This document shows, piece by piece, positions 1 to 33,689 of a stretch of DNA of 33,689 nucleotides. Numbering within the stretch: the stretch's first letter is position 1; each line of letters opens with the position of its first letter. The position numbers and the translations under genes are program-made. Source of the stretch: a virus. The DNA lies in IMG/VR virus record IMGVR_UViG_3300028025_000511, positions 1-33,689 of that record; one strand, 5' to 3'. The notes below the pieces were generated by a model. The model had not been told where the DNA came from and searched no databases. It saw only the letters and a program-made list of their open reading frames with translations.

Positions 1-140
1 CACTTTAGATTTGCATCGTAGTTCTACAGCATACCGACTTGCTAATACAGTAGTTGTTCCTGCTGATGCAACTCTTGATGTTGTTAGTAAATCAATTTAC
101 TTGGAGGAAGGTGACTCTTTGCGTTTAACAGCTAACGCAA
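1..140. repeat. Terminal overlap, left copy (matches 33550-33689)
   Basis: These 140 bases recur at the right end of the window with one difference: C at 14 against T at 33563. A coding frame reads through the join without interruption, so the likeliest meaning is that the contig closes into a circle of about 33,549 bp, from a circularly permuted or terminally redundant genome. A true short terminal repeat of the virion DNA is less likely, because the repeat lies inside a gene and is not identical. Confidence 0.9.
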
Positions 141-184
141 CTGGTGACCTTGAGGCTGTCTGCTCTTATGAGGAAATCTCCTAA
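1..184 (+). CDS. Small virion-type protein, C-terminal part (continues from 33380)
   Basis: This is the 3' part of a gene that starts at 33380 and crosses the circle junction. Joined, it codes for about 117 residues and ends ...CSYEEIS. The frame is open from base 2 and stops with TAA at 182-184, overlapping the next ATG as TAATG. It lies between the long tail fibre gene and two glycine-rich tail proteins, so a role as a small tail or fibre-associated protein is likely by position. I recognise no domain. Codon 5 of this fragment is His (CAT), but the right-end copy has Tyr (TAT), a real or assembly-level variant. Confidence 0.75.
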   Translation, partial: TLDLHRSSTAYRLANTVVVPADATLDVVSKSIYLEEGDSLRLTANATGDLEAVCSYEEIS

Positions 185-1137
185 TGATTAACAACGGAGG
201 CGTTATTGGGCCAAAGAACAGCCCGACATCCTCTGTTGCATCAGGGGTGTGGTCACTGTTTGAACAGGCGACTGCGAAGAAGGGTAGTGCTTGGCCTTCC
301 GTTGTAACAACACCATCAACAATTGAATTATTAGTTGTTGCAGGTGGTGGTGGCGGAGGAGGTGGTAGCGATTCACGAGGAGGTGGTGGTGGAGCAGGGG
401 GCGCACTAACAGCAGCAACTTGGGCTGTAACCGCTGCGACTTCATACACAATCACAATAGGTGGTGGTGGTTCTGGAAGTTCTAACTCTGGTACTACTGG
501 CTCAGACACTACTGCTTTTGGTTTGACTACAAAAGGTGGTGGAGGCGGTGGTGGTGGCCCTCGTGGAGGAATGACCGCTGGCAAAAATGGCGGTTCTGGA
601 GGCGGAGGAACTGGATTTGATTCTTACTTAACAGGCGGAAGCGCAACTCAATCATCTCAAAATTCAGGCGTAAGCGGGATTACTCAATATGGCAATGCTG
701 GTGGTGGAGGCGGTGCTTATGCAACTCCCGCACCAGGTGGTGGCGGTGCAGGTGGCGCAGGCTCTGTTGCTAATGGCTCTGGTATCGGTATTGAGTGGCC
801 TAGTGGTTCATCTACTTATTACGCAGGCGGTGGCGGTGGTGCAGCAACACCTTTAACTGGCAACACTACAGTTAACGCTGGTGTCGCTTATGGTGGTGGT
901 GGGCAACAAAATTCAGAAGCAAACGGAAGTGCTGGAACTGCTAACACTGGTGGAGGTGGCGGTGGTGCTGGCTCAGAAAGTTCTGTGACAGGCGCTGCTG
1001 GTGGTTCTGGTGTAGTCATCATTCGCTATCCAGATAGCTACAGTGCAGCGACATCCACTACAGGCTCACCAACATACACAGTATCTGGTGGATATAGAAC
1101 TTACAAATTCACTGCTACAGGCAGCATCACATTCTGA
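184..1137 (+). CDS. Glycine-rich tail fibre / tail tip protein, copy 1
   Basis: A 317-residue protein with a conserved head (GGVIGPKNSPTSSVASGVWS), a segment ELLVVAGGGGGGGG, then long glycine runs separated by Ser/Thr/Ala-rich stretches (residues about 50-280), and a compact tail beginning SGVVIIRYPDSYSA and ending TATGSITF. Glycine-rich adhesins of this type in tailed phages form polyglycine-II helix bundles at the fibre tip and contact the host receptor. The assignment here rests on this composition and on the position after the tail fibre gene. The ATG overlaps the upstream TAA and has GAGGAAA upstream. It is paralogous to the next gene, with the same head and the same C-terminal domain. 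Long reverse-strand frames across it are only the complement of GGN codons. Confidence 0.85.
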   Translation: MINNGGVIGPKNSPTSSVASGVWSLFEQATAKKGSAWPSVVTTPSTIELLVVAGGGGGGGGSDSRGGGGGAGGALTAATWAVTAATSYTITIGGGGSGSSNSGTTGSDTTAFGLTTKGGGGGGGGPRGGMTAGKNGGSGGGGTGFDSYLTGGSATQSSQNSGVSGITQYGNAGGGGGAYATPAPGGGGAGGAGSVANGSGIGIEWPSGSSTYYAGGGGGAATPLTGNTTVNAGVAYGGGGQQNSEANGSAGTANTGGGGGGAGSESSVTGAAGGSGVVIIRYPDSYSAATSTTGSPTYTVSGGYRTYKFTATGSITF

Positions 1138-1145
1138 GGTGACAC

Positions 1146-2054
1146 ATGGAAAAGAGAAGTAATGGTGGTGTCATCGGAACTGTGAACACGCCAAACACAT
1201 CGGCAGCGTCTGGTATCTGGGCACTGTCCGAGCAAGAAGTGAATAGGGCTAATTGGCCTTCACTTGTAACTAAGACTTCTACAGTTGAATATCTTGTTGT
1301 CGCTGGCGGTGGAGGTGGTGGTAATAGTAATGATAACAGTGGTGGTGCAGGCGCAGGCGGTGCTGGAGGATATAGAACAGCAACAGGATTTTCTGTTTCT
1401 TCTGGTGTTTCTTTAACTGTAACTGTTGGTGGTGGTGGCGCAGGTGCATCATCACAAGGAAATTCGGGCAGTAGTGGCTCTAATTCTGTGTTTAGTTCAA
1501 TTACTTCCACAGGAGGCGGTGGAGGTAGCGCAGGACAAGGCTCTACTGGTGCTAGTGGTGGTTCTGGCGGTGGTGGTGGGTATCAAAGAACTGGCGGTGC
1601 AGGCACTTCTGGTCAAGGCAATGCGGGTGGTACAGGTGCTGGCGGTAGTCCATACTATGGTGGTGGCGGTGGCGGTGCAGGTGGTGCGGCAAGTAATAAT
1701 ACTGCGGGTATAGGATTGCAATCTTCAATCTCTGGTACTGCACTGTATTACGCTGGTGGAGGCGGTGGACAAGGAGCATCTGGAGGCTCTGGTATTGGAG
1801 GTGCTGGTGCGTCTGGAACAAATGTCAATGACGCTCAAAGTGCTTCACCAGCAAATCGTGGCTCTGGTGGCGGTGGCGGTGCAAACACTGATACTGGTTC
1901 AAAAGCTGGAGGAAGTGGAAGTTCTGGTGTTGTAATTATTCGATACTCTGATGCATACGAGGCTGCGGTTTCAACTACAGGTTCACCGACTTACACAGTT
2001 AGTGGTGGATACAGAATCTACACATGGACTTCCTCTGGAAGCATTACATTTTAA
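1146..2054 (+). CDS. Glycine-rich tail fibre / tail tip protein, copy 2
   Basis: A 302-residue paralogue of the preceding gene, 8 bases downstream of it, with a GAGGTG ribosome binding site. Head (NGGVIGTVNTPNTSAASGIW), the EYLVVAGGGGGG segment and tail (SGVVIIRYSDAYEAA to SSGSITF) match copy 1 closely, while the glycine-rich middle differs in length and order. This is the pattern of a tandem duplication whose ends are kept and whose exposed middle drifts. The role is probably receptor contact at the tail tip, either together with copy 1 or as an alternative to it. Function is inferred from composition and position. Confidence 0.85.
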   Translation: MEKRSNGGVIGTVNTPNTSAASGIWALSEQEVNRANWPSLVTKTSTVEYLVVAGGGGGGNSNDNSGGAGAGGAGGYRTATGFSVSSGVSLTVTVGGGGAGASSQGNSGSSGSNSVFSSITSTGGGGGSAGQGSTGASGGSGGGGGYQRTGGAGTSGQGNAGGTGAGGSPYYGGGGGGAGGAASNNTAGIGLQSSISGTALYYAGGGGGQGASGGSGIGGAGASGTNVNDAQSASPANRGSGGGGGANTDTGSKAGGSGSSGVVIIRYSDAYEAAVSTTGSPTYTVSGGYRIYTWTSSGSITF

Positions 2055-6782: not shown

Positions 6783-6922
6783 GTGCTTGGCTAATTATTC
6801 TCACAGGGGCAATCTACGCTTACATAGCTGGTGAGCAGCTTTGGAAAGATAACCCACACATGGCGATAGTCTATGCTGGCTACGCCTTTTCAAATGTGGG
6901 TCTTTACTTGTTGGCTAAATAG
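6779..6922 (+). CDS. 47-residue two-span membrane protein
   Basis: Starts at TTG overlapping the upstream TGA. Reads MSAWLIILTGAIYAYIAGEQ, then a polar turn LWKDNPHM and a second hydrophobic segment AIVYAGYAFSNVGLYLLAK. Two short helices in 47 residues make a hairpin membrane protein. It is the last gene of the rightward late block and overlaps the end of the opposite-strand MazG-like gene by 8 bases. I recall near-identical small proteins in other environmental phages, without known function. Confidence 0.65.
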   Translation: MSAWLIILTGAIYAYIAGEQLWKDNPHMAIVYAGYAFSNVGLYLLAK

Positions 6923-7223
6923 TTTCTTTAACGAACAATCCATTAGGCAAAAGCGTACCCCTACGATTCTTTATTTGGTCGTATGCAACTTCCATGCAGT
7001 CTACCAGATTGATGTCTTGCAAAGCGCAGTAATTAACAAGGCAGACCATGACATCACCAACAGCGTCCACAATAGCTTCCTTGTCCTTCTTAATGGTTGC
7101 ATCTGCTAGTTCTCCCATTTCTGACATTGCTTTTAGAAGCTGAACTTCTGGTGTACTGTTAGGAATAATCTTACGAGCCTCTGCCCATTGAATTATTTTT
7201 ATTTCTACATTTGCGTATGACAT
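6915..7223 (-). CDS. MazG-like nucleotide pyrophosphohydrolase
   Basis: 102 residues from the ATG at 7223, which has an AAAGGA site just upstream; an upstream in-frame start is less likely. The pattern EMGELADA at about 35-42, then EAIVDAVGDVMVCL (about 49-62), supplies the E-x2-E ... D-x2-D metal ligands of the MazG/all-alpha NTP-PPase fold. Such enzymes hydrolyse NTPs or dNTPs to monophosphates and may alter nucleotide pools or (p)ppGpp signalling during infection. It is the last gene of the leftward block. Confidence 0.8.
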   Translation of the reverse strand: MSYANVEIKIIQWAEARKIIPNSTPEVQLLKAMSEMGELADATIKKDKEAIVDAVGDVMVCLVNYCALQDINLVDCMEVAYDQIKNRRGTLLPNGLFVKETI

Positions 7224-7225
7224 AT

Positions 7226-7609
7226 CTATCCTTTTGAGTTTGCAAATTCGTACCACATCACATAAAAGTCTTTCAAGAAATCAAGACCCTCACCAATCTT
7301 TATGCACCTGCCTAACACTATCTGGAACACACTACCGACTTCTGTTTGTTCTTTGTCTGTGTTTCCAATAATGACCAGTACAGTAAATTTAGGCACTTGA
7401 GCAAAAGCCTGTAGTAACAACTCTTGCCCCTTTGCCATTTTCTCGTTTGGCTTTTTCCATTCACCAATTAAGAAGTGTCCTCTCCTCTCGCAAATCATGT
7501 CTATGTTGCTAGGCAAGAAGTTAGGATTGTTTTGTATCAACCTAGCGAAATCTCGGAAGTCTGTATGACTAGCCAGAGAATTTCGCATTTGATTAGGTGG
7601 GCTACTCAT
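7226..7609 (-). CDS. PD-(D/E)XK-like nuclease, putative
   Basis: 127 residues. The segment from N36 (IDMICERRGHFLIGEWK) gives Asp37, then Glu50-x-Lys52, followed by GQELLL with Gln62. This is the D...(E)-x-K...Q pattern of the PD-(D/E)XK nuclease fold. It sits beside an Erf annealing protein and an SSB-like protein, so a role in recombination or DNA end processing is likely. The start overlaps the stop of the 48-aa gene as ATGA. Assignment rests on the motif pattern only. Confidence 0.6.
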   Translation of the reverse strand: MSSPPNQMRNSLASHTDFRDFARLIQNNPNFLPSNIDMICERRGHFLIGEWKKPNEKMAKGQELLLQAFAQVPKFTVLVIIGNTDKEQTEVGSVFQIVLGRCIKIGEGLDFLKDFYVMWYEFANSKG

Positions 7610-7752
7610 GTTCGTCCGCTATTTCTAGCCACTTTCGCCCATAAATGGTGAAGCCTACTCGCTGCGTCTGTTTGCCACAAGGTGTTCCGAATGGCGAGGG
7701 CTATTACCTCCCTCCAGTATCCGCTTTCGGCTTCGTAATCAGAAAGGCGCAT
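7606..7752 (-). CDS. 48-residue protein of unknown function
   Basis: A short gene on the minus strand: MRLSDYEAESGYWREVIALA then IRNTLWQTDAASRLHHLWAK and VARNSGRT. It begins inside the end of the SSB-like gene (14-base overlap, different frame) and its stop overlaps the nuclease ATG. It fills the only gap between those two genes, which supports it. Helical, Trp-containing, no recognised domain. Confidence 0.6.
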   Translation of the reverse strand: MRLSDYEAESGYWREVIALAIRNTLWQTDAASRLHHLWAKVARNSGRT

Positions 7753-7981
7753 CGTCCTCAAATTCTTCTTGCTTTACCTTTTTCTTAGGTTGCACATCTG
7801 CGTTCTTATTCTTGACAGACAAAGACATGAACTTAGCACCATCTTTGCTGACCTTAATCCATGCAGATAGCCAGTAGTCTGTGCCATCTACGTTAATGCT
7901 TCCCTTGTAATCAGGGAATTTTGCATCGTCCTTGCGGTCATTCTTAAAGAGTGAGCCTCGATTTGTGTTGTCGTATTCCAT
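7739..7981 (-). CDS. Small single-stranded DNA-binding-like protein
   Basis: 80 residues. The N-terminal half MEYDNTNRGSLFKNDRKDD, then YKGSINVDGTDYWLSAWIKV and MSLSVKNKN, looks like a short beta-rich OB-type domain similar to DUF736-like phage proteins. The end is acidic and closes with FEDDAPF, much like the C-terminal tip of bacterial SSB that recruits repair proteins. Lying between Erf and a nuclease, it fits a recombination module. The fold is inferred from pattern. Confidence 0.65.
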   Translation of the reverse strand: MEYDNTNRGSLFKNDRKDDAKFPDYKGSINVDGTDYWLSAWIKVSKDGAKFMSLSVKNKNADVQPKKKVKQEEFEDDAPF

Positions 7982-7982
7982 A

Positions 7983-8585
7983 TTAACCTTTCGCTTTCTT
8001 AATTGCGCTTCTTACGTTACTTGGCATCAGAGTCCAAAGAGCAACCTTTTGGTCAGCCTCTAAGTTCTCTTTCTCCAACCTTACCCAAGCTGCCTTGGGG
8101 TCTTTCTCACAAATAGCAATTAGTTCAACTGCTAATTCGTCAAGATACCTTAATATTTCAATAGGTAATTCATCTTTGATGCCTTGTGCTGGTGTGATGA
8201 TTACAGCTTCCTTAGTAGGGGCAGCAGCATCAAAGCTATCGCTCTCTATAAGGTCACAGGCGCACATATAAAGGTATCTCCGTTGATACGTCTGACAGCC
8301 GCCAAGGGACTGGATAGGAGATGCGCCTTTCATATTTGACTCAACCATTGGGCTTGTAATCACAATGCAAGTGCCATCATCTACATCTGTAATTGTCAGG
8401 CTTGCGTATTCAGAATCAAAAGACACTACGCTGCACAAACCAATGCGATTAAAGATTGCGTTTACTTGAGGTAGAAAGTCTCCCAACTCAAAGTAATTGT
8501 AGCCAGCAAACTTGTTGTGACCAGACTTCTTGAGTGGCATTGATTGTAATTCCACTCGTGCTTGCATTAACTTCTTATGTACCAT
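7983..8585 (-). CDS. erf: Erf-family single-strand annealing protein
   Basis: 200 residues. The N-terminal two thirds match the ERF family: KKSGHNKFAGYNYFELGDFL (about 19-38), a GLCSVVSF strand, MKGASPIQSLGGCQTYQRRY (about 84-103) and LIESDSFD. Erf proteins form rings that anneal complementary single strands and support recombination or circularisation of phage DNA. The C-terminal part is helical and variable. The ATG overlaps the upstream TAA (TAATG). Confidence 0.88.
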   Translation of the reverse strand: MVHKKLMQARVELQSMPLKKSGHNKFAGYNYFELGDFLPQVNAIFNRIGLCSVVSFDSEYASLTITDVDDGTCIVITSPMVESNMKGASPIQSLGGCQTYQRRYLYMCACDLIESDSFDAAAPTKEAVIITPAQGIKDELPIEILRYLDELAVELIAICEKDPKAAWVRLEKENLEADQKVALWTLMPSNVRSAIKKAKG

Positions 8586-8755
8586 TATTCTTCCTTTAAA
8601 TATTCTTCAATCATTGCTTCTTTGTCTTCTTCATAGAGGTCTTCAAACTCTACAAAGTGGTTCTCTGAACAGCAAGAGCCGTAGGTCTTTGGTTCAGTAC
8701 AGTAAACACAATACAGGCCGTGTGATAAGTCCTTGATTGCGTCTTCTCTGGTCAT
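8585..8755 (-). CDS. 56-residue Cys-rich acidic protein, unknown
   Basis: MTREDAIKDLSHGLYCVYCT, then EPKTYGSCCSENHF and an acidic tail ending EEYLKEE. A C-x2-C pair followed by CC could bind one zinc ion. It overlaps the upstream gene by 4 bases and couples to erf by TAATG, so it belongs to the leftward operon. Function unknown; a small zinc-binding regulator or inhibitor is one possibility. Confidence 0.65.
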   Translation of the reverse strand: MTREDAIKDLSHGLYCVYCTEPKTYGSCCSENHFVEFEDLYEEDKEAMIEEYLKEE

Positions 8756-8910
8756 TGGATTCTGCCAATCTGTTTAGCAACTAACCATTTGTCGCCAAGT
8801 TTAAGAACTGCCCTGACCCACTTGCGTTGGTTGTACTGGTTAACTTGTTGTGGAACTAAACTGTTGTTGTACAGTTGACGAGCCTTGCGTCTGAGTTGTT
8901 CTGTTTGCAT
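8752..8910 (-). CDS. 52-residue basic protein, unknown
   Basis: The start chosen is the ATG at 8910, which has GGAGAGG directly upstream. Reads MQTEQLRRKARQLYNNSLVP then QQVNQYNQRKWVRAVLKLGD and ends QIGRIQ. Rich in Arg/Lys/Gln, so possible nucleic-acid or protein binding. Coupled on both sides by 3-4 base overlaps within the leftward operon. No domain recognised. Confidence 0.6.
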   Translation of the reverse strand: MQTEQLRRKARQLYNNSLVPQQVNQYNQRKWVRAVLKLGDKWLVAKQIGRIQ

Positions 8911-8990
8911 TAGCCTCTCCATGCCAACATTACACCGATACCGCCAAAGATGATGACAGCGAGTGTCCATTCAATTAACTTTTCTTTCAT
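8910..8990 (-). CDS. 26-residue membrane peptide, first gene of leftward operon
   Basis: MKEKLIEWTLAVIIFGGIGV then MLAWRG, a single hydrophobic helix with charged ends. It has a good AAGGA site and follows the conserved leader that also precedes the gene at 12554. Its stop overlaps the next ATG (TAATG). As the first translated peptide of the early leftward transcript it could be a small membrane effector, or partly serve to couple translation of the genes behind it. Confidence 0.6.
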   Translation of the reverse strand: MKEKLIEWTLAVIIFGGIGVMLAWRG

Positions 8991-9034
8991 TTGCTTTTCC
9001 TTAAAAGTACCCTCACGATTTGTTTGGGCTGACG
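8991..9034 (-). promoter_or_regulatory. 5' leader of leftward operon, repeated at 12512-12553
   Basis: Read on the minus strand, the segment starts near the expected transcription start, with TCAGCCCAA, and includes AGGGTACTTTTAAGGA (8998-9013) with the ribosome binding site. The same leader occurs on the plus strand before 12554: 31 of 35 positions from TCAGCCC to AAGGA are identical, with no gaps. A weak GCCC/GGGT stem can form. A shared RNA-level control element is the likely meaning. Confidence 0.7.
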
Positions 9035-9036
9035 TT

Positions 9037-9070
9037 AGTATATCAAACTTAACAAGATATTTTCTAGGTG
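9037..9070 (-). promoter_or_regulatory. Leftward early promoter
   Basis: Minus strand -10 TATACT at 9042-9037 preceded by TG (TGATATACT, extended -10). Eighteen bases upstream lies TAGAAA within CACCTAGA (9070-9063). CACCTAGA and the -10 occur at the same offsets from the ATG as in the promoter before 12554. It should drive 8990 to 6915. Confidence 0.65.
9040..9060. promoter_or_regulatory. Dyad, candidate operator
   Basis: ATATC, 11 bases, GATAT: a perfect 5-bp inverted repeat overlapping the leftward -10 and its spacer. A further pair AACTTA (9046) / TAAGTT (9078) lies in the same divergent region. The Cro-like protein encoded at 9116 is the natural candidate to bind here. The sequence evidence is modest. 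Confidence 0.35.
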
Positions 9071-9081
9071 GTTTCCCTAAG

Positions 9082-9109
9082 TTAAACATTTTGTTGATTT
9101 TGCTATACT
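9082..9109 (+). promoter_or_regulatory. Rightward early promoter, extended -10
   Basis: TGCTATACT (extended -10, hexamer 9104-9109) with a weak TTAAAC 16 bases upstream. Transcription would start at about 9116, the A of the ATG of the Cro-like gene. No spaced Shine-Dalgarno exists, so the message is probably leaderless. Confidence 0.6.
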
Positions 9110-9115
9110 CGAAGG

Positions 9116-9268
9116 ATGGATAAACAAACCGCTATCACACTTGCTGGCTCACAGAGTGAGCTTGCCAGAATCCTCGGCATAACTCGGGCTGCTGTCTTCT
9201 TATGGAAGAAAATCCCTCAGTTACGCATTTATCAACTCAAAGAACTCAGACCAGATTGGTTTAAATGA
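9116..9268 (+). CDS. Cro-like DNA-binding regulator
   Basis: 50 residues. The segment GSQSELARILGITRAAVFLW (11-30) is a helix-turn-helix closely patterned like P22 Cro/YdaS-type regulators, and the rest (KKIPQLRIYQLKELRPDWFK) completes a minimal Cro fold. It is the first gene after the divergent control region, where Cro genes sit, so it probably represses the divergent promoters as infection proceeds. The ATG directly follows the promoter without a leader. No CI-type repressor partner is visible. Coupled to the next gene by ATGA. Confidence 0.8.
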   Translation: MDKQTAITLAGSQSELARILGITRAAVFLWKKIPQLRIYQLKELRPDWFK

Positions 9269-9612
9269 CTCAAGCACAAGTAATCAAAGCCCTCCAGAAC
9301 GGCCCATTGACTTCACACGAAGTAGCTAACCTGACTGGTATGCCACAAGCCACAGTCCTGTCAACAGCCAAGAAACTGCGTAGCCTAGGCAAGCTGTCAA
9401 CAGAGCAGGTCAAGGTAGGCAGACATTGGGTTGCTCAATACACCTTGGCTGACAATGAAATAGAAAAGCAAGACAGCAATGTAAAAATCATCTGTGGCAT
9501 CAAGACCTATGGCATCTTTACAAAAGCTGAGTATGCTGTGATGAAACAACAAGCCACTCGATTGCTTGGCAAACAAGGTAAAAAAGAAATCACTAACAAT
9601 CAATTTATTTGA
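9265..9612 (+). CDS. Winged-helix DNA-binding protein
   Basis: 115 residues. The N-terminal 60 residues form a clear winged helix: MTQAQVIKALQNGPLTSHEV, LTGMPQATVLSTAKKLRSLG as the recognition unit, and a wing QVKVGRHWVAQYTL. The C-terminal half is unassigned and includes GIKTYGIFTKAEYAVMKQQ. It may be an early transcription regulator or help load replication proteins, given the Cro-like gene before it and the replication gene after it. Confidence 0.7.
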   Translation: MTQAQVIKALQNGPLTSHEVANLTGMPQATVLSTAKKLRSLGKLSTEQVKVGRHWVAQYTLADNEIEKQDSNVKIICGIKTYGIFTKAEYAVMKQQATRLLGKQGKKEITNNQFI

Positions 9613-9635
9613 TACAATAATTTGAAACACGGCTA

Positions 9636-9657
9636 GGTGGGGGGTAGCTACCCCACC
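9636..9657. promoter_or_regulatory. GC-rich hairpin before the replication gene
   Basis: GGTGGGG and CCCCACC flank an 8-base loop; alternatively GGGGTAGCTACCCC (9641-9654) is a perfect 14-bp palindrome, so two pairings compete. No T-run follows, so it is not a normal intrinsic terminator. It may stabilise the downstream message, pause transcription or bind a dimeric protein. Confidence 0.5.
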
Positions 9658-9721
9658 GAAAAGAGTTCCTCCCTCTCCTGCCGCAGTTTCTTTCAAGGGA
9701 GTGGTTTAAAAGGTGAGTTAT

Positions 9722-10504
9722 ATGCATTACTACCAGCATCATATTGGTGATTTCATCAAGGACACATCGTTCCTAACCAATGAAGAAATCGGAATTTATC
9801 TCAAGTTAATTTGGCTTTACTACGACACAGAAAAGCCATTGCCAAACAATCTATTTGAGCTTGGCATGAAGACAGCAACTAGAGACAACCAAGTTGTTCT
9901 TGAAGGCTTGCTAGAAATGTTTTTTGTTTTAGATGAAGAAAATAATTGCTGGCATCACAACAGGTGCGATAAAGAAATTGAACACTATAAACAGCAATTA
10001 ACTACTGCTTCTAAAGCTGGAAAAGCATCGGCACTTAAACGAGCGATGAACAAGAATTCAACGAGCGTTGAACAGCCGTTAAACGAGTGTTCAACAGAAG
10101 TTCAACCAACCAATAACCAACAACCATTAACCAAGAACCAAGAGAAGAAGACACTCGGCAAACGCCTCGCTAATGATTTGGTTTTGTCAGATGAGTGGAA
10201 AGAATTTTGTGTCAATGAAAGACCAGAGTTAAATCCTGTTCAAACATTCGATAAGTTCAAGGATTACTGGATAGCCCAAGCAGGTCAGAAGGGTGTGAAG
10301 CTAGACTGGTTTGCTACATGGCGTAATTGGGTACGCAACACAAACGCACCTAAACAAAATCCTGCTGACATTGTTAGGCTCACAGTTCCATCAAAGAATG
10401 AGCCTGACCCTGCACTTGAGAAAATCAAAGCTGACGAAAAGAAGGCAGTTCCAATTCCACTAGAGGTTTTGGCAAGAATGGCTCAATTAAGGAGTAAAGC
10501 ATGA
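9722..10504 (+). CDS. DUF1376-type replication initiation protein
   Basis: 260 residues from the ATG at 9722, chosen because AAGGTGAG precedes it at good spacing (a GTG at 9713 lies within that site). The N-terminus MHYYQHHIGDFIKDTSFLTN ... EIGIYLKLIWLYYDTEKPLP is the DUF1376/YdaU pattern found in phage replication proteins. A low-complexity Asn/Gln/Thr linker (about 105-145) follows, then a C-terminal domain with EWKEFCVNERPELNP and DWFATWRNWVRN, typical of replication O-like proteins. The linker DNA carries three 22-bp tandem repeats, a candidate origin. It probably recruits the host helicase. Confidence 0.8.
   Translation: MHYYQHHIGDFIKDTSFLTNEEIGIYLKLIWLYYDTEKPLPNNLFELGMKTATRDNQVVLEGLLEMFFVLDEENNCWHHNRCDKEIEHYKQQLTTASKAGKASALKRAMNKNSTSVEQPLNECSTEVQPTNNQQPLTKNQEKKTLGKRLANDLVLSDEWKEFCVNERPELNPVQTFDKFKDYWIAQAGQKGVKLDWFATWRNWVRNTNAPKQNPADIVRLTVPSKNEPDPALEKIKADEKKAVPIPLEVLARMAQLRSKA
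10038..10103 (+). repeat. Three tandem 22-bp repeats, candidate origin iterons
   Basis: Copies at 10038-10059, 10060-10081 and 10082-10103 share AACGAG.G.T.AACA....TT, with 16-17 of 22 bases identical between pairs. The period of 22 is not a multiple of three, so each copy is read in a different frame and the repeat cannot be kept for the protein sequence. The cores show partial dyad symmetry (AACGAGCGTT). An A/C-rich, AT-leaning stretch follows. The location inside the replication gene parallels the lambda origin inside O. Confidence 0.6.
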
Positions 10505-11409
10505 ATAAGATTGAATTTGGTGATTGCAGAGAAACAATGCGTAAATGGGCTACGCAAGGAATTAAGGCGCAAACTTGTGTAACAAGTCCTCCTTACTATG
10601 GTTTGCGTGACTATGGGCATGAAGGTCAAATTGGTCTTGAAGAAACACCAGAGGAATATATCAAGCAAATGGTAGAAGTTTTCCGATGTGTTTGGGATGT
10701 GCTTGAGGATGATGGAACACTTTGGGTAAACATTGGTGATAGCTATGCTGGTAACAATTCAAGAGCATCAAACAATGGTCGTGCTGGATTTGGTAATGCT
10801 AGAGAAAAAGTAGTTAACAGGACTGGTGAAGGTCTAAAAACTAAAGACTTGATTGGTATTCCTTGGATGCTTGCATTTGCTTTAAGAGCAGATGGCTGGT
10901 TTTTGCGTCAAGACATTATTTGGCATAAACCAAACCCAATGCCTGAGTCTGTGCAGGATAGATGCACAAAAGCCCATGAATATATTTTCTTGTTAAGCAA
11001 ATCACAGAAATATTACTATGACCATGAGGCAATTAAAGACCCTGTTAAAGATGATTGGGGTACAAGAGATAGAGCCAATGGTAAATATCACAATGAAGGA
11101 AGTGGATTACAGCCTCATAGTGGTTTAGAAAAGTCATATGAGATGGCAAACAAAAGAAGTGTTTGGAGTGTTCCTGTAAAACCATATACAGGCGCACACT
11201 TTGCTGTTTTCCCAAGTGAACTTATTGAGCCTTGCATACTTGCTGGCGCACCTGTTGGTGGAATTGTTTTAGACCCTTTTATGGGTTCTGGAACAACAGC
11301 ACAAGTTGCTCAAGACCTTGGCAGGAAATACCTTGGATGCGAGTTAAATACTGAGTATGGAAAACTTCAACAAAAAAGATTGGCACAACAATCATTGGAG
11401 TTGATATGA
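10501..11409 (+). CDS. DNA methyltransferase, beta class (N4-C or N6-A)
   Basis: 302 residues. The catalytic motif TSPPYYGLRDYG is at about 28-39, and the AdoMet-binding motif LDPFMGSGTTAQVA comes near the C-terminus (about 257-270), so the order is catalytic, target recognition, AdoMet-binding (beta class). The SPPY form is often seen in N4-cytosine enzymes, but N6-adenine is also possible. No restriction endonuclease lies beside it, so it is an orphan that probably protects phage DNA or marks it for replication or packaging. ATGA coupled on both sides. Confidence 0.92.
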   Translation: MNKIEFGDCRETMRKWATQGIKAQTCVTSPPYYGLRDYGHEGQIGLEETPEEYIKQMVEVFRCVWDVLEDDGTLWVNIGDSYAGNNSRASNNGRAGFGNAREKVVNRTGEGLKTKDLIGIPWMLAFALRADGWFLRQDIIWHKPNPMPESVQDRCTKAHEYIFLLSKSQKYYYDHEAIKDPVKDDWGTRDRANGKYHNEGSGLQPHSGLEKSYEMANKRSVWSVPVKPYTGAHFAVFPSELIEPCILAGAPVGGIVLDPFMGSGTTAQVAQDLGRKYLGCELNTEYGKLQQKRLAQQSLELI

Positions 11410-11513
11410 ACTACTACGAAGCAATGAGACTTTTGGACAAGGTGCGTGAAGGCGTACCATTTCCGATACACCTGATAAACAAAGCATTGGAACTGACTGG
11501 TGACTTGGAGTAG
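11406..11513 (+). CDS. 35-residue protein of unknown function
   Basis: MNYYEAMRLLDKVREGVPFP then IHLINKALELTGDLE. A compact helical peptide with PFP and ALELTGDL features, translationally coupled to the methyltransferase by ATGA and overlapped at its end by the next gene. It may be a small partner peptide. Function unknown. Confidence 0.6.
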   Translation: MNYYEAMRLLDKVREGVPFPIHLINKALELTGDLE

Positions 11514-11712
11514 AAGAAATATTCAAGGCCCAAGCGATAGGGTAATTCTTGAGCAAGCAGAGGCTCGAGAACTCTATCGTAATTGGGAATGGTCAAAGAA
11601 TCGTGACCTGATTCGTGCAAGGCTTGAAAGAGCAGAACGAATTTATGGGACTGGTGCTAGAGACAGAATTCGTGCGTACATGGCACAAATGAGAGAAGGA
11701 ACACTTGAATGA
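11500..11712 (+). CDS. 70-residue Arg-rich protein, unknown
   Basis: Starts at GTG (11500) inside the end of the 35-aa gene and ends overlapping the RusA-like start (ATGA). Reads MTWSRRNIQGPSDRVILEQA and is rich in Arg and Glu, mostly helical. The charge pattern and the position before a resolvase gene suggest nucleic-acid association, but no domain is recognised. Confidence 0.65.
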   Translation: MTWSRRNIQGPSDRVILEQAEARELYRNWEWSKNRDLIRARLERAERIYGTGARDRIRAYMAQMREGTLE

Positions 11713-12137
11713 CATTCATAGTCACATTTAAGGTTGAAGGCAACCCTGTTGGCAAACAAAGAGCAAGGTATGCCAAACGTGGAAACTTTGTCCAAACTTA
11801 CACACCTGAGAAAACCAGAACATACGAATCTTTGATTAAAGACTCAGCAAAGCAAGCAATGGGGTCTTCCGAGCCTTTAGAGACCCCTGTAAGCCTTTAT
11901 TTATACATCCGAGTGCCAATTCCTGCATCTACTACAAAAAAGCGTTTGGAGGCCATTGCTAAAGGCGATGAAAAGCCAATCAAAAAACCTGATGCTTCCA
12001 ATATTTTGAAAAGCATAGAAGACGGAATGAATGGTGTTGTTTACAAGGATGATTCGCAGATTGTGAATATCCATGTGACTAAGGTTTACTCTAGTCAAGC
12101 TGGTGTGGATATTTGCGTCAAGGAGTGTCTTGAATGA
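11709..12137 (+). CDS. rusA: RusA-family Holliday junction resolvase
   Basis: 142 residues. Starts with a strand containing GNPVGKQRARYAKRG (11-25), the basic N-terminal motif of RusA, and carries KKPDASNILKSIEDGMNGVV (92-111) followed by YKDDSQI. These give the acidic metal ligands D95, D105 and D114/D115 of RusA endonucleases, which cut Holliday junctions symmetrically. In phages RusA debranches recombination and replication intermediates before packaging, which fits the Erf protein in the leftward operon. Confidence 0.92.
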   Translation: MTFIVTFKVEGNPVGKQRARYAKRGNFVQTYTPEKTRTYESLIKDSAKQAMGSSEPLETPVSLYLYIRVPIPASTTKKRLEAIAKGDEKPIKKPDASNILKSIEDGMNGVVYKDDSQIVNIHVTKVYSSQAGVDICVKECLE

Positions 12138-12466
12138 AAGCCCCTTACAAAGCCATTGAATACATCATTGAAAATTCATGCAAATATGCGGAAGCTAAAG
12201 CACAAAGAATCTACCTTGAGGAATTCAGAAAGACTAAAAAAGCCTTGTTGATGAAAGATGCGTTATCCAGAGGTATTGATTCTGCTGTTGCTCAAGAGCG
12301 TGAAGCCTATGCACACCTTGAATACGCTGACCTGCTCAAAGGTTTGATGGTTGCCATTGAGAAAGAAGAAACTTTAAAGTGGATGCTTGTTGCTGCCCAG
12401 ATGAAAGCTGACATTTGGAGAAGTGAGCAAGCTAGTGAGCGTCTTGGCGTAAAAACCACAGAGTAG
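12134..12466 (+). CDS. Helical protein of unknown function next to RusA
   Basis: 110 residues, all-helical: MKAPYKAIEYIIENSCKYAE, a basic stretch, then EREAYAHLEYADLLKGLMVA and a C-terminal helix with MKADIWRSEQASERLG. I have seen such proteins next to rusA in other phages but know no function. ATGA overlap with rusA; the last gene before the promoter at 12474. Confidence 0.7.
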   Translation: MKAPYKAIEYIIENSCKYAEAKAQRIYLEEFRKTKKALLMKDALSRGIDSAVAQEREAYAHLEYADLLKGLMVAIEKEETLKWMLVAAQMKADIWRSEQASERLGVKTTE

Positions 12467-12473
12467 GTATAAA

Positions 12474-12507
12474 CACCTAGACAATTGTGTTGAGAAAACT
12501 ATACAAT
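12474..12507 (+). promoter_or_regulatory. Second rightward early promoter
   Basis: TAGACA (12478-12483, five of six bases of the -35 consensus), 18-base spacer, -10 TACAAT (12502-12507, five of six). It lies in a real gap between genes. CACCTAGA at its upstream edge and the leader behind it repeat the leftward promoter region base for base in spacing. Confidence 0.7.
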
Positions 12508-12511
12508 GCAC

Positions 12512-12553
12512 TCAGCCCAAGCAATTCGCAAGGGTACTTTTAAGGACTAAGCA
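12512..12553 (+). promoter_or_regulatory. 5' leader of 12554 operon, repeat of the leftward leader
   Basis: From TCAGCCCAA to AAGGA (12512-12546), 31 of 35 bases match the minus-strand leader at 9032-8998. The 16-base block AGGGTACTTTTAAGGA (12531-12546) is identical and contains the ribosome binding site. The distance from the -10 and to the ATG is the same in both copies. Confidence 0.7.
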
Positions 12554-12811
12554 ATGAAATACGAATTTGACACAACTGTTGGTGAAGGCTCTGTAGTAGT
12601 TACTGTTGTCATGGAATACGACACAGATTCAGAAGGCATCTATGGCGAGAACATTGAAGACATTATTTACGAGAAGGTAAGTGTGCTTGGCCTGTTCTCT
12701 GCTGAACAATACAAAGAACTTGAGATAGAAGGCTGTATGCGTCTTTCTAAACACATCTTGGATGAAGCAGACCACTCTGTATCTGTTGAATACGATATGA
12801 GGAATGTATGA
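12554..12811 (+). CDS. 85-residue acidic protein, unknown
   Basis: Begins MKYEFDTTVGEGSVVVTVVM, beta-rich and strongly acidic, with IEDIIYEKVSVLGLFSAEQY in the middle. First gene after the repeated promoter-leader, so one of the most directly controlled early products. The acidity could suit a DNA-mimic or inhibitor, but that is a guess. Coupled to the next gene by ATGA. Confidence 0.7.
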   Translation: MKYEFDTTVGEGSVVVTVVMEYDTDSEGIYGENIEDIIYEKVSVLGLFSAEQYKELEIEGCMRLSKHILDEADHSVSVEYDMRNV

Positions 12812-16612: not shown

Positions 16613-17862
16613 TCGAAATCCCTTACAGACCAAGGGAACACCAACTAAAGGTTCACGAATTACTGGAAGGCAAACGCTTTGCAGTAGTAGTGGCACATCG
16701 AAGGTTTGGTAAAACTGTAGCTGCTCTCAATCACCTAATCCGTGATGCGGTGTTAAACCAAAGAGAGACACCAAGATATGCCTATATTGCGCCTACTTAT
16801 GGTCAAGCAAAGAGGGTGGCATGGGATTACTTGGTTAAATACACTACACCGCTAGGCGGTACTAACAACATCTCAGAATTACGAGTTGACTTCTGGGGTA
16901 GGCGAATCCAGCTTTATGGCTCTGACAACCCTGATTCCTTACGAGGACAGTTTTTTGACGGAGTGATTATTGACGAGGTTGGCGACCAAAACCCAAAGAT
17001 TTGGACTGATATTGTTCGACCTGCGCTGACAGACCGCAAAGGGTGGTGCTTATTCATTGGTACACCCAAAGGTCACAACCACTTCAAAGAACTGCGAGAC
17101 AGGGCAGAAACTGAAGAAGGATGGGGTTTGCTAGAGTTCAAAGCCTCTGAAACAGGGGTGGTGGACGATACAGAACTGAAGGCTGCTCGTAATGAGATGG
17201 GTGAGGATAAGTACCGCCAAGAGTTTGAATGTAGCTTTGATGCTGCTGTAGAAGGTTCTTACTATGGACAAATCCTCAATGAACTGGAAGACAAGCACCA
17301 TATGCAAGACATTCCAAGAGAGGAACTGAGCCGTACATTTACTGCTTGGGATTTGGGTATGGGTGATTCAACATCTATTTGGGTGGCTCAGTTAGTAGGT
17401 ACTGAAGTGCGTCTGATTGACTACTACGAGAATCATGGTGTTGGACTAGACCACTATGTGAAGTGGATTAGGGACAATGACTATGCCAAAGCAGAGCATA
17501 TTCTGCCCCATGACGTTAGGGTCAGAGAGTTAGGTTCTGGGAAAAGCCGACTAGAGATGCTTGAGGAAGCAGGACTAGAGATAAAGATTGCCCCGAGAAT
17601 GGGTCTAGATGATGGTATTCAAGCGGTAAGGCGACTATTGCCAAGGTGCTGGTTTAATGTCCCTAAAGTCCAGATAGGGCTGAACTGCCTGAGAAACTAC
17701 CGCAGAGATTACGATGAAAAGCGTAAGATTTTCTATGAGCGTCCATTGCATGACTGGTCATCGCATGGCTCGGACTCATTCCGCTACTTAGCCCTTGGAC
17801 TTGATGAAGGTCACAGTACATGGTCTAAACCGATTAACCAAGCACCGAAATGGATTGTCTGA
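16600..17862 (+). CDS. terL: Terminase large subunit
   Basis: 420 residues, full length for a compact TerL. The ATPase domain has Walker A-like VVAHRRFGKT (about 30-39), Walker B with DE at 125-126 (GVIIDEVGDQ) and the coupling motif FIGTPKG (about 152-158). The C-terminal RNase H-like nuclease has D251 in TAWDLGMGDSTSIW and D305 in LPHDVRV. The enzyme pumps DNA into the prohead and cuts concatemers. Its stop overlaps the next ATG as TGATG. Confidence 0.96.
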   Translation: MGEVIEIPYRPREHQLKVHELLEGKRFAVVVAHRRFGKTVAALNHLIRDAVLNQRETPRYAYIAPTYGQAKRVAWDYLVKYTTPLGGTNNISELRVDFWGRRIQLYGSDNPDSLRGQFFDGVIIDEVGDQNPKIWTDIVRPALTDRKGWCLFIGTPKGHNHFKELRDRAETEEGWGLLEFKASETGVVDDTELKAARNEMGEDKYRQEFECSFDAAVEGSYYGQILNELEDKHHMQDIPREELSRTFTAWDLGMGDSTSIWVAQLVGTEVRLIDYYENHGVGLDHYVKWIRDNDYAKAEHILPHDVRVRELGSGKSRLEMLEEAGLEIKIAPRMGLDDGIQAVRRLLPRCWFNVPKVQIGLNCLRNYRRDYDEKRKIFYERPLHDWSSHGSDSFRYLALGLDEGHSTWSKPINQAPKWIV

Positions 17863-33379: not shown

Positions 33380-33689
33380 ATGGCTGCACCCAATATCGTA
33401 AATGTATCAACAATCATAGGCAAAACTGCTGTTCAAGCTATTGGAACTTCTGCGACAGCAATTGTCACAAATGCAGGGTCAAGTGGTAAAGTTCTAAAAG
33501 TTAATGCACTCTATGTTTCTAATGTAGATGGCACTAACAATGCTGAACTCACTTTAGATTTGTATCGTAGTTCTACAGCATACCGACTTGCTAATACAGT
33601 AGTTGTTCCTGCTGATGCAACTCTTGATGTTGTTAGTAAATCAATTTACTTGGAGGAAGGTGACTCTTTGCGTTTAACAGCTAACGCAA
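33380..33689 (+). CDS. Small virion-type protein, N-terminal part (continues at 141-184)
   Basis: Starts MAAPNIVNVSTIIGKTAVQA with a GGAG site and runs off the right edge; the frame continues at 141-184 once the 140-bp overlap is merged, giving about 117 residues. The mid-part SSGKVLKVNALYVSNVDGTN then AELTLDLYRSST suggests a beta-sandwich. It lies between the tail fibre and the glycine-rich tip proteins, so a fibre or tail accessory role is likely. Confidence 0.78.
   Translation, partial: MAAPNIVNVSTIIGKTAVQAIGTSATAIVTNAGSSGKVLKVNALYVSNVDGTNNAELTLDLYRSSTAYRLANTVVVPADATLDVVSKSIYLEEGDSLRLTANA
33550..33689. repeat. Terminal overlap, right copy (matches 1-140)
   Basis: Same 140 bases as the left end except T at 33563. 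The last 126 bases are identical in both. This copy codes Tyr (TAT) where the left copy codes His. Confidence 0.9.

Follow-up and report, generated by a model that had tools for sequence, protein, structure and literature searches.

Stem-loops at the 5' end stabilise mRNAs of Escherichia coli (ompA, papA), and in phage lambda the nutL and nutR elements, composed of boxA and boxB, place one RNA tag on both of two opposed transcription units. In phage HK022, related RNA elements (putL and putR) lie in two opposed early operons, with putL just after PL (PMC9378689). Cluster K mycobacteriophages have conserved repeats at the ribosome sites of different genes (SAS and ESAS), about half of them with inverted repeats upstream; there are 11-19 SAS per genome, and according to their authors the changes seen from one repeat to another give, in general, no support for RNA pairing (PMC3203893).

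In the 33,689-nt stretch of viral DNA analysed here (IMG/VR record IMGVR_UViG_3300028025_000511; throughout, the window), two outward-pointing units are each headed by a copy of the same expression module, in which a sigma70-type promoter, overlapped by an operator-like palindrome, is followed by a hairpin at the predicted 5' end of the transcript. Comparison among related sequences shows the module, its layout of two per record, the pairing of its hairpin and the narrow spacing that follows. The kind of arrangement is already known, namely a structured phage leader on both opposed units, and an earlier sequence-only reading of this DNA, which knew of no described equivalent, overstated its case in view of putL/putR and nutL/nutR. 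For such a leader, that is, for this motif, its place at the transcription start (+1) and its coupling to swapped first genes, we found no description in the open papers searched.

As in lambda and HK022, one RNA tag is carried by both opposed units. With lambda-type nut, the leader shares a short hairpin, a 5-nt loop, a place in both opposed operons and a phage with Cro and Erf-type genes; it differs in that there is no constant boxA, no N-like protein was found among the window proteins scanned, and the hairpin starts at +2. The put element is described as about 70 nt long with two stem-loops, whereas here a single hairpin of 22-25 nt stands directly before the ribosome site. Like SAS/ESAS, our leaders are conserved repeats at the ribosome sites of different genes; unlike those repeats as their authors present them, they number just two strong copies per record (true of the window and of 39 of 40 related records) and their pairing is supported. 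The stem lies at the mRNA 5' end, as in ompA and papA, but those are host genes, whereas here one motif is reused on two phage units and its function is a prediction. Finally, the layout recalls the early region of P22 and lambda, with a P22_Cro-family gene divergent to a recombination unit and an operator-like palindrome between them, except that cro is here predicted to be leaderless and a second promoter with a palindrome lies 3.4 kb away.

Two promoter-leader copies in the window and its relatives

The minus strand from 9070 to 8988 and the plus strand from 12474 to 12556 align without gaps, and all offsets from -35 to ATG agree. The -35 boxes are TAGAAA (9066-9061, minus) and TAGACA (12478-12483, plus); an 18-base spacer separates each from its -10 hexamer, TATACT (9042-9037, minus) or TACAAT (12502-12507, plus). 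From TCAGCCC to AAGGA, 31 of 35 leader bases are identical, and the start codons are ATG at 8990-8988 (minus) and 12554-12556 (plus). Thus far the sequence-only reading is confirmed. The alignment begins at CACCTAGA, as that reading had it, but each promoter has a longer palindrome of which this is only the right half: CTTAGGGAAACCACCTAG (9081-9064) at one and TAGGTATAAACACCTA (12464-12479) at the other. We built a covariance model, R1, on 27 leaders from other records; its scores are included among the features of the two copies:

9064-9081, minus strand: operator-like palindrome CTTAGGGAAACCACCTAG over the -35 box (sequence; same class by eye at promoters of relatives with the same Cro type)
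9037-9066, minus strand: promoter TAGAAA-18-TATACT (sequence, promoter scan)
9009-9030, minus strand: leader hairpin AGCCC AA AC AAAUC GU GA GGGU, predicted +1 at A9030 (R1 28.5 bits; fold -6.0 kcal/mol)
8998-9008, minus strand: tail ACTTTT and Shine-Dalgarno AAGGA (sequence; leaders of relatives)
12464-12479, plus strand: operator-like palindrome TAGGTATAAACACCTA over the -35 box (sequence; comparison by eye with relatives)
12478-12507, plus strand: promoter TAGACA-18-TACAAT (sequence, promoter scan)
12514-12535, plus strand: leader hairpin AGCCC AA GC AAUUC GC AA GGGU, predicted +1 at A12514 (R1 33.1 bits; fold -6.9 kcal/mol)
12536-12546, plus strand: tail ACTTTT and Shine-Dalgarno AAGGA (sequence; leaders of relatives)

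The duplication is not a chance event: this pair (I1) is the longest among the 116 inverted-repeat pairs of the window (48 nt, 81%), and R1 finds the plus copy at E 2e-6 and the minus copy at E 3e-5, with no third copy in the window (the next-best match scores 10.6 bits). The promoter consensus alone is no evidence, since promoter-like sites between 6700 and 17000 are fewer than in shuffles (5 versus 19.9). An Rfam scan of the whole window to E 5 returned no family at the leaders, and only int-alpA at 9626-9699.

A leader 35-mer with five two-fold positions, searched in IMG/VR, matches 116 stretches. To avoid selection by the leader itself, relatives were also chosen by two proteins, the ERF annealing protein and terminase. 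Among the best 80 of 89 ERF relatives, the leader lies upstream of ERF in 74 (73 by pattern, plus L262, which begins with the leader); five are undecided (four contigs with at most 250 nt upstream, and L247 with 848), and the sole clear lack is in L271, whose ERF is 55% identical and for which 3.7 kb upstream is available. Among the best 80 terminase relatives, every one of the 15 newly fetched loci with 10 kb of upstream sequence has the plus leader; any leader is found by pattern in 22 of 74 new loci, many of the others being short. Neither the leader pattern nor a terminase relative was found in the collection of genome contigs.

A profile search of related phages, which the sequence-only reading had proposed, was run with R1 on 40 whole records of 16-37 kb, some of them fragments (31 + 20 loci, giving 24 + 17 records with one shared). 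Exactly two strong matches (E < 0.003) on opposite strands occur in 39 of the 40, as in the window. The copies point apart in 36 records as they stand, and in G008, G016 and G020 only with the record ends joined; a single additional, weak match (E 0.37 to 0.92) occurs in each of four records, and G022, which is the same as L271, has none in this search. Relatives that keep the units thus keep the leader beyond the ribosome site, both among the ERF relatives and in whole records; the sequence-only reading had named the opposite outcome as one that would refute its proposal. Among relatives outside the group, no credible leader match was found in Venkman, three Manatee Spring phages, PinkBerry phage, HTVC010P or L271 (best E 3.5), and MW202484, which has Cro, ERF, a MazG-like protein, RusA and a 110-aa gene in common with the window, has no paired leader repeat.

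The hairpin also leads back to the same module when promoter and ribosome site are left out of the search. Two patterns for long-stem hairpins match 82 and 12 stretches which, pooled with the copies in loci already collected and deduplicated, give 88. A -10-like site lies 5-8 nt before the hairpin in all 87 that have upstream DNA (about 4% in AT-rich random DNA); a listed Shine-Dalgarno follows in 87 of the 88, with AAGGGA in the remaining one; and ERF-side genes lie downstream in 79, while the other nine end within 700 nt. In such genomes the leader lets promoters, transcription starts and first genes be placed from sequence alone.

Pairing and conservation of the leader hairpin

The module runs in the order hairpin, 4-6 nt, AAGGA, start codon. 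The A of TCAGCCC, our predicted +1, occupies the 7th position after the -10 or, in some TACAAT cases, the 8th, and this assignment is supported by cro, in which the distance from -10 to ATG equals that from -10 to the leader A (6 nt). From this base a hairpin of 22-25 nt can form; the ribosome site ends at most 11 nt from it, and of 115 distinct leaders, 106 have 17-19 nt between the stem end and the start codon. Two inner pairs around a 5-base loop can be parsed in 53/53 of the first variants, which were gathered by pattern (-10, CCC..GGG, AAGGA or AAGAA). A hairpin of this type folds in all 36 distinct cores, with +3 paired in 36 and +2 in 30; for the predicted +1, the stem therefore begins within a few nt of the 5' end. 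The mean free energy of the 36 cores is -6.7 kcal/mol, compared with -5.6 for chimeras of their halves, a crude control that mixes length classes. The 22-nt core alone stands out from shuffles (z -2.5 and -2.3 for the two copies).

Because MAFFT puts the outer stem wrong between two length classes, counts were taken from a model-fitted alignment, A3, which excludes the six weakest of 156 matches and keeps the other 150 (48 distinct). In A3, 96.4% of cells are paired versus 93.3% in shuffles (0/500 as high), and two-sided changes occur in 29 cells versus 10.5 (0/500) and in 4 pairs versus 2.4 (4/500), while slid structures pair in just 20-34% of cells. The three outer pairs are invariant; column pair 7-20 is broken in 5/27, and pair 2-25 is non-standard (A.C) in 7/48. 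The 27 long-stem leaders taken alone have 7 two-sided changes versus 3.0 in shuffles (4/500). Among 32 distinct cores, the inner pair is A-U in 17, G-C in 12, G-U in 3 and never A-C (Fisher 2e-6, a statistic that ignores kinship), and the closing pair is G.U in 26, A.C in 6 and never Watson-Crick.

A further observation concerns the loop, which we compared across distinct contexts (103 minus, 121 plus), after exclusion of four with an undecided arm and of copies less than 45 nt from a contig start. Constancy at +1, +3 and +4, in the stem classes and in the base that precedes the inner stem was imposed by the collecting pattern and is not a result; the five loop positions were left free. Loop entropies are 0.24-0.93 bits (minus) and 0-0.17 bits (plus), against 1.4-1.8 and 1.0-1.7 bits, respectively, for the four bases after the -10; the loop is also more constant than the spacer to ATG. 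The plus leader hardly varies, with 9 variants in 208 instances (not deduplicated), of which 179 are identical, a count biased by the 35-mer search having targeted that form, although the plus form in whole records is mostly the 33.1-bit one as well. The minus leader is variable, with 44 variants in 176 instances (again not deduplicated), and by eye we saw no coupling of plus and minus hairpin type within a genome. Stem covariation, the conserved loop and the narrow spacing to the start codon bear out the proposal that selection acts on the transcribed leader. The result is a testable RNA motif (two per genome, covarying, no Rfam match) for a group of uncultured phages often encountered in the virus collection.

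First genes and operator-like palindromes

The genes of the two units, and cro, are as follows:

8910-8990, minus strand: first gene of the minus unit, a 26-aa membrane-like peptide MKEKLIEWTLAVIIFGGIGVMLAWRG (sequence, first-gene comparison)
6915-8910, minus strand: remainder of the minus unit, encoding 52-aa and 56-aa proteins, the ERF annealing protein (7983-8585), an SSB-like protein, 51-aa and 127-aa proteins and a MazG-like protein (gene list, Pfam/PHROG)
9104-9268, plus strand: cro, P22_Cro domain, 50 aa, with -10 TATACT at 9104-9109, then 6 nt, then ATG at 9116 (Pfam match, comparison of starts)
12554-12811, plus strand: first gene of the plus unit, an acidic 85-aa protein MKYEFDTTVGEG... 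(pI 4.1; no Pfam or PHROG match)

The SSB-like protein, which has no Pfam match, is so labelled by position and size, and the co-directional genes of the plus unit extend to terminase. A basic 52-aa protein (8752-8910, minus strand; pI 11.4), ending in WVRAVLKLGDKWLVAKQIGRIQ, occurs in two N-terminal subtypes in 24/24 fetched records, G022 included.

Judged from sequence comparison, the gene right behind each leader is swapped between viruses and between the two messages. The 388 leader instances (overlapping loci counted) yield 22 families of complete first genes, with representatives of 26-94 aa; seven of these families stand behind both leaders, and a search of ten families against PHROG and Pfam gave no match. 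Around the near-constant plus leader, both promoter types and first genes reassort. All 23 fetched records that bear the leader encode a homolog of the 85-aa protein in the plus unit. In 16 of them it is the gene right after the leader, and in the other 7 it lies 206-477 nt after +1, which means that the swapped gene can be an insertion in front of it. We regard the swapped genes as candidates for early host-takeover functions.

A Cro homolog is present in 21 of 24 fetched records. Its gene is predicted to be leaderless: ATG lies 6 nt after a -10-like site in 20/20 cases with a start found (window included), our script, run on 23 records and the window, having called this start in 20 of the 24 cases and another in G004, G010, G011 and G021. 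In records with this Cro, a palindrome of the TAGGGAAAGTACCTA or TAGGTATAAACACCTA type, or a looser variant, overlies the -35 at both promoters (by eye; the plus side of G020 is cut off). It is missing at both promoters of G017, which has another gene at the place of cro, and at the minus promoter only in G011, two cases that do not amount to a test. These palindromes are probably operators for the Cro encoded beside one of them. Since such a palindrome overlaps the -35 at both promoters, the two units are linked at the DNA level too: of the shared RNA-level control proposed by the sequence-only reading, an RNA element in both units is upheld, but a link made purely by RNA is not.

Candidate roles of the hairpin and other elements of the window

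We infer a post-initiation role for the hairpin, exerted on the mRNAs of both units. The reading that we favour, plausible although we would not call it probable, is that the hairpin protects the mRNA and keeps the ribosome site open. It would stand at the extreme 5' end of the message, its pairing starting at +2 or +3. Judged against the footprint of a ribosome, the 3' end of the hairpin would lie at about the upstream edge of the bound ribosome, leaving little free RNA outside. The hairpin could thereby hinder 5'-end-dependent decay (by RppH, then RNase E) and hold the ribosome site open for whatever gene follows; a protein may read the conserved loop as well, and Cro would lower both units together. 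RppH of E. coli needs unpaired 5' bases. The B. subtilis enzyme has the same need (PMC3997798). It is this need, together with the position of the stem and the ribosome site, that leads us to favour protection. Such a plain 5' cap would be a natural design for gene-independent expression.

Several observations weigh against this reading. The plus loop is almost invariant across its 121 distinct contexts, though a pure cap needs no fixed loop. The predicted effect on accessibility of the ribosome site is weak in silico (0.70 for natural leaders, 0.63 with the hairpin shuffled and 0.72 with it deleted; 197 contexts), and the leader with its gene start (61 nt) is no stabler than shuffles (z -0.23 and -0.51). 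With regard to the pairing itself, A3 is fitted to the structure and hence leans towards it, its additional pair types are fewer than in shuffles (6 versus 7.8), and the 27 long-stem leaders alone are paired in 94.0% of cells versus 94.3% when shuffled, with a covariation score likewise no higher. Furthermore, the same short hairpin could serve rival mechanisms.

Because the loop is constant, more than a cap may be involved, and a protein that reads it is a close rival. In that case the hairpin would mainly be a recognition site: a putative phage or host RNA-binding protein would bind the loop and the A-rich internal loop, and switch translation or stability of both units. We consider this possible, if on the unlikely side. 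It would account for five free loop positions that are more constant than free bases nearby and for a closing pair, G.U or A.C, that is never Watson-Crick and perhaps has a fixed wobble geometry; yet the minus loop varies, and the A.C class may be one lineage. The 85-aa protein of the plus unit shares the distribution of the leader, with homologs in 23/23 records with it and in none of the seven without it (G022 and six named phages), but this comparison covered the stretches around leaders rather than whole records, co-inheritance in one lineage explains the distribution equally well, and a very acidic protein (pI 4.1) with no known domain is on its face a poor RNA binder. The SSB-like protein, in 23/23 leader-bearing records, is also in 2/7 without it, and the ERF, 52-aa and 189-aa proteins are also in leaderless G022. 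Should a factor indeed read the hairpin, the phage would have a compact means of labelling its messages as its own.

Processive antitermination of the nut or put kind, in which the nascent hairpin would load onto RNA polymerase so that terminators are passed in both units, strikes us as rather improbable. Its logic and layout are those of lambda nutL/nutR and HK022 putL/putR, the tag is operon-level rather than gene-specific, the context is one of ERF and a P22-type Cro, and the plus unit is long and co-directional. Against these stand a single short hairpin in place of two stems of about 70 nt, and various sequences where a constant boxA would be sought between stem and AAGGA (ACUUUU, CUUUUU, AUUUUU, CUUU, AAUU, CAUU or CAUA). 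Terminator-like sites between 6700 and 17000 number 9 versus 8.8 expected, and cro and the replication genes lack the tag. The window proteins scanned gave no N- or Q-like match, and two candidates were set aside: the 52-aa protein as N-like, because its conserved part is the C-terminal half and its arginine-rich start is found in one subtype only, and the 110-aa protein encoded before the plus promoter as Q-like, because BLASTP gave no match between it and the antiterminators annotated in the relatives Venkman and MW202481 (of which one has a sub-threshold and the other no Q match in Pfam).

It is very unlikely that the leader is simply a conserved boundary kept by homologous exchange, at which recombination shuffles first genes and promoters while the hairpin has no other role: the reassortment around the plus leader and the seven families behind both leaders would fit, but stem covariation, the narrow ATG spacing and 44 fold-keeping minus variants would go unexplained. 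Least credible of all is that the leader works as DNA, a palindrome that a dimeric regulator would bind immediately downstream of +1: although paired changes in two halves arise in DNA palindromes too, the CCC-to-GGG distance varies (13, 15 or 16 nt), one-sided changes of the inner pair give G-U and never A-C, and the closing pair is never symmetric.

Beyond the protective hairpin, we considered a wider scheme for the region, doubtful as a whole: two outward units headed by hairpins, a leaderless cro and, before a replication gene, a pseudoknot RNA of the int-alpA type under a promoter of its own. A putative factor would read the hairpin as a phage-specific 5' tag, any small gene in the first slot would be expressed with priority, and either slot could equally well receive host-takeover or counter-defence genes, which would be exchanged quickly.

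The int-alpA-type RNA (RF02996; 9613-9717, plus strand) stands before the primosomal gene, with a TACAAT -10 (9613-9618) just upstream; it scores 29.1 bits, below the cut-off of 35.8, and its counterpart in relative L285 exceeds the cut-off at 37.6 bits. A pattern search finds it in 19 of 25 records, one of them the window. Pairing between the 3' tail and the loop of hairpin 2 was compared across 57 distinct copies, of which 55 have at least five Watson-Crick pairs (0/2000 shuffles as high); by this comparison the element is a covarying pseudoknot. Its pseudoknot classes look like specificity or immunity types, for which P4 CI and P1 C4 RNA are parallels. A pairing of its loop with the leaders was rejected, as by eye the loop classes change and the leader does not follow. 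L285 also has a weak isrG-like Rfam match (17545-17768, minus strand; 31 bits against a cut-off of 100), probably by chance. Elsewhere in the window, two adjacent, similar glycine-rich proteins are encoded at 184-2054 (plus strand), where a 141-nt repeat (999-1139 and 1916-2056) is 72% identical, and the two ends of the window (1-140 and 33550-33689) form a 140-base repeat, 99% identical, which indicates a circular or terminally redundant record.

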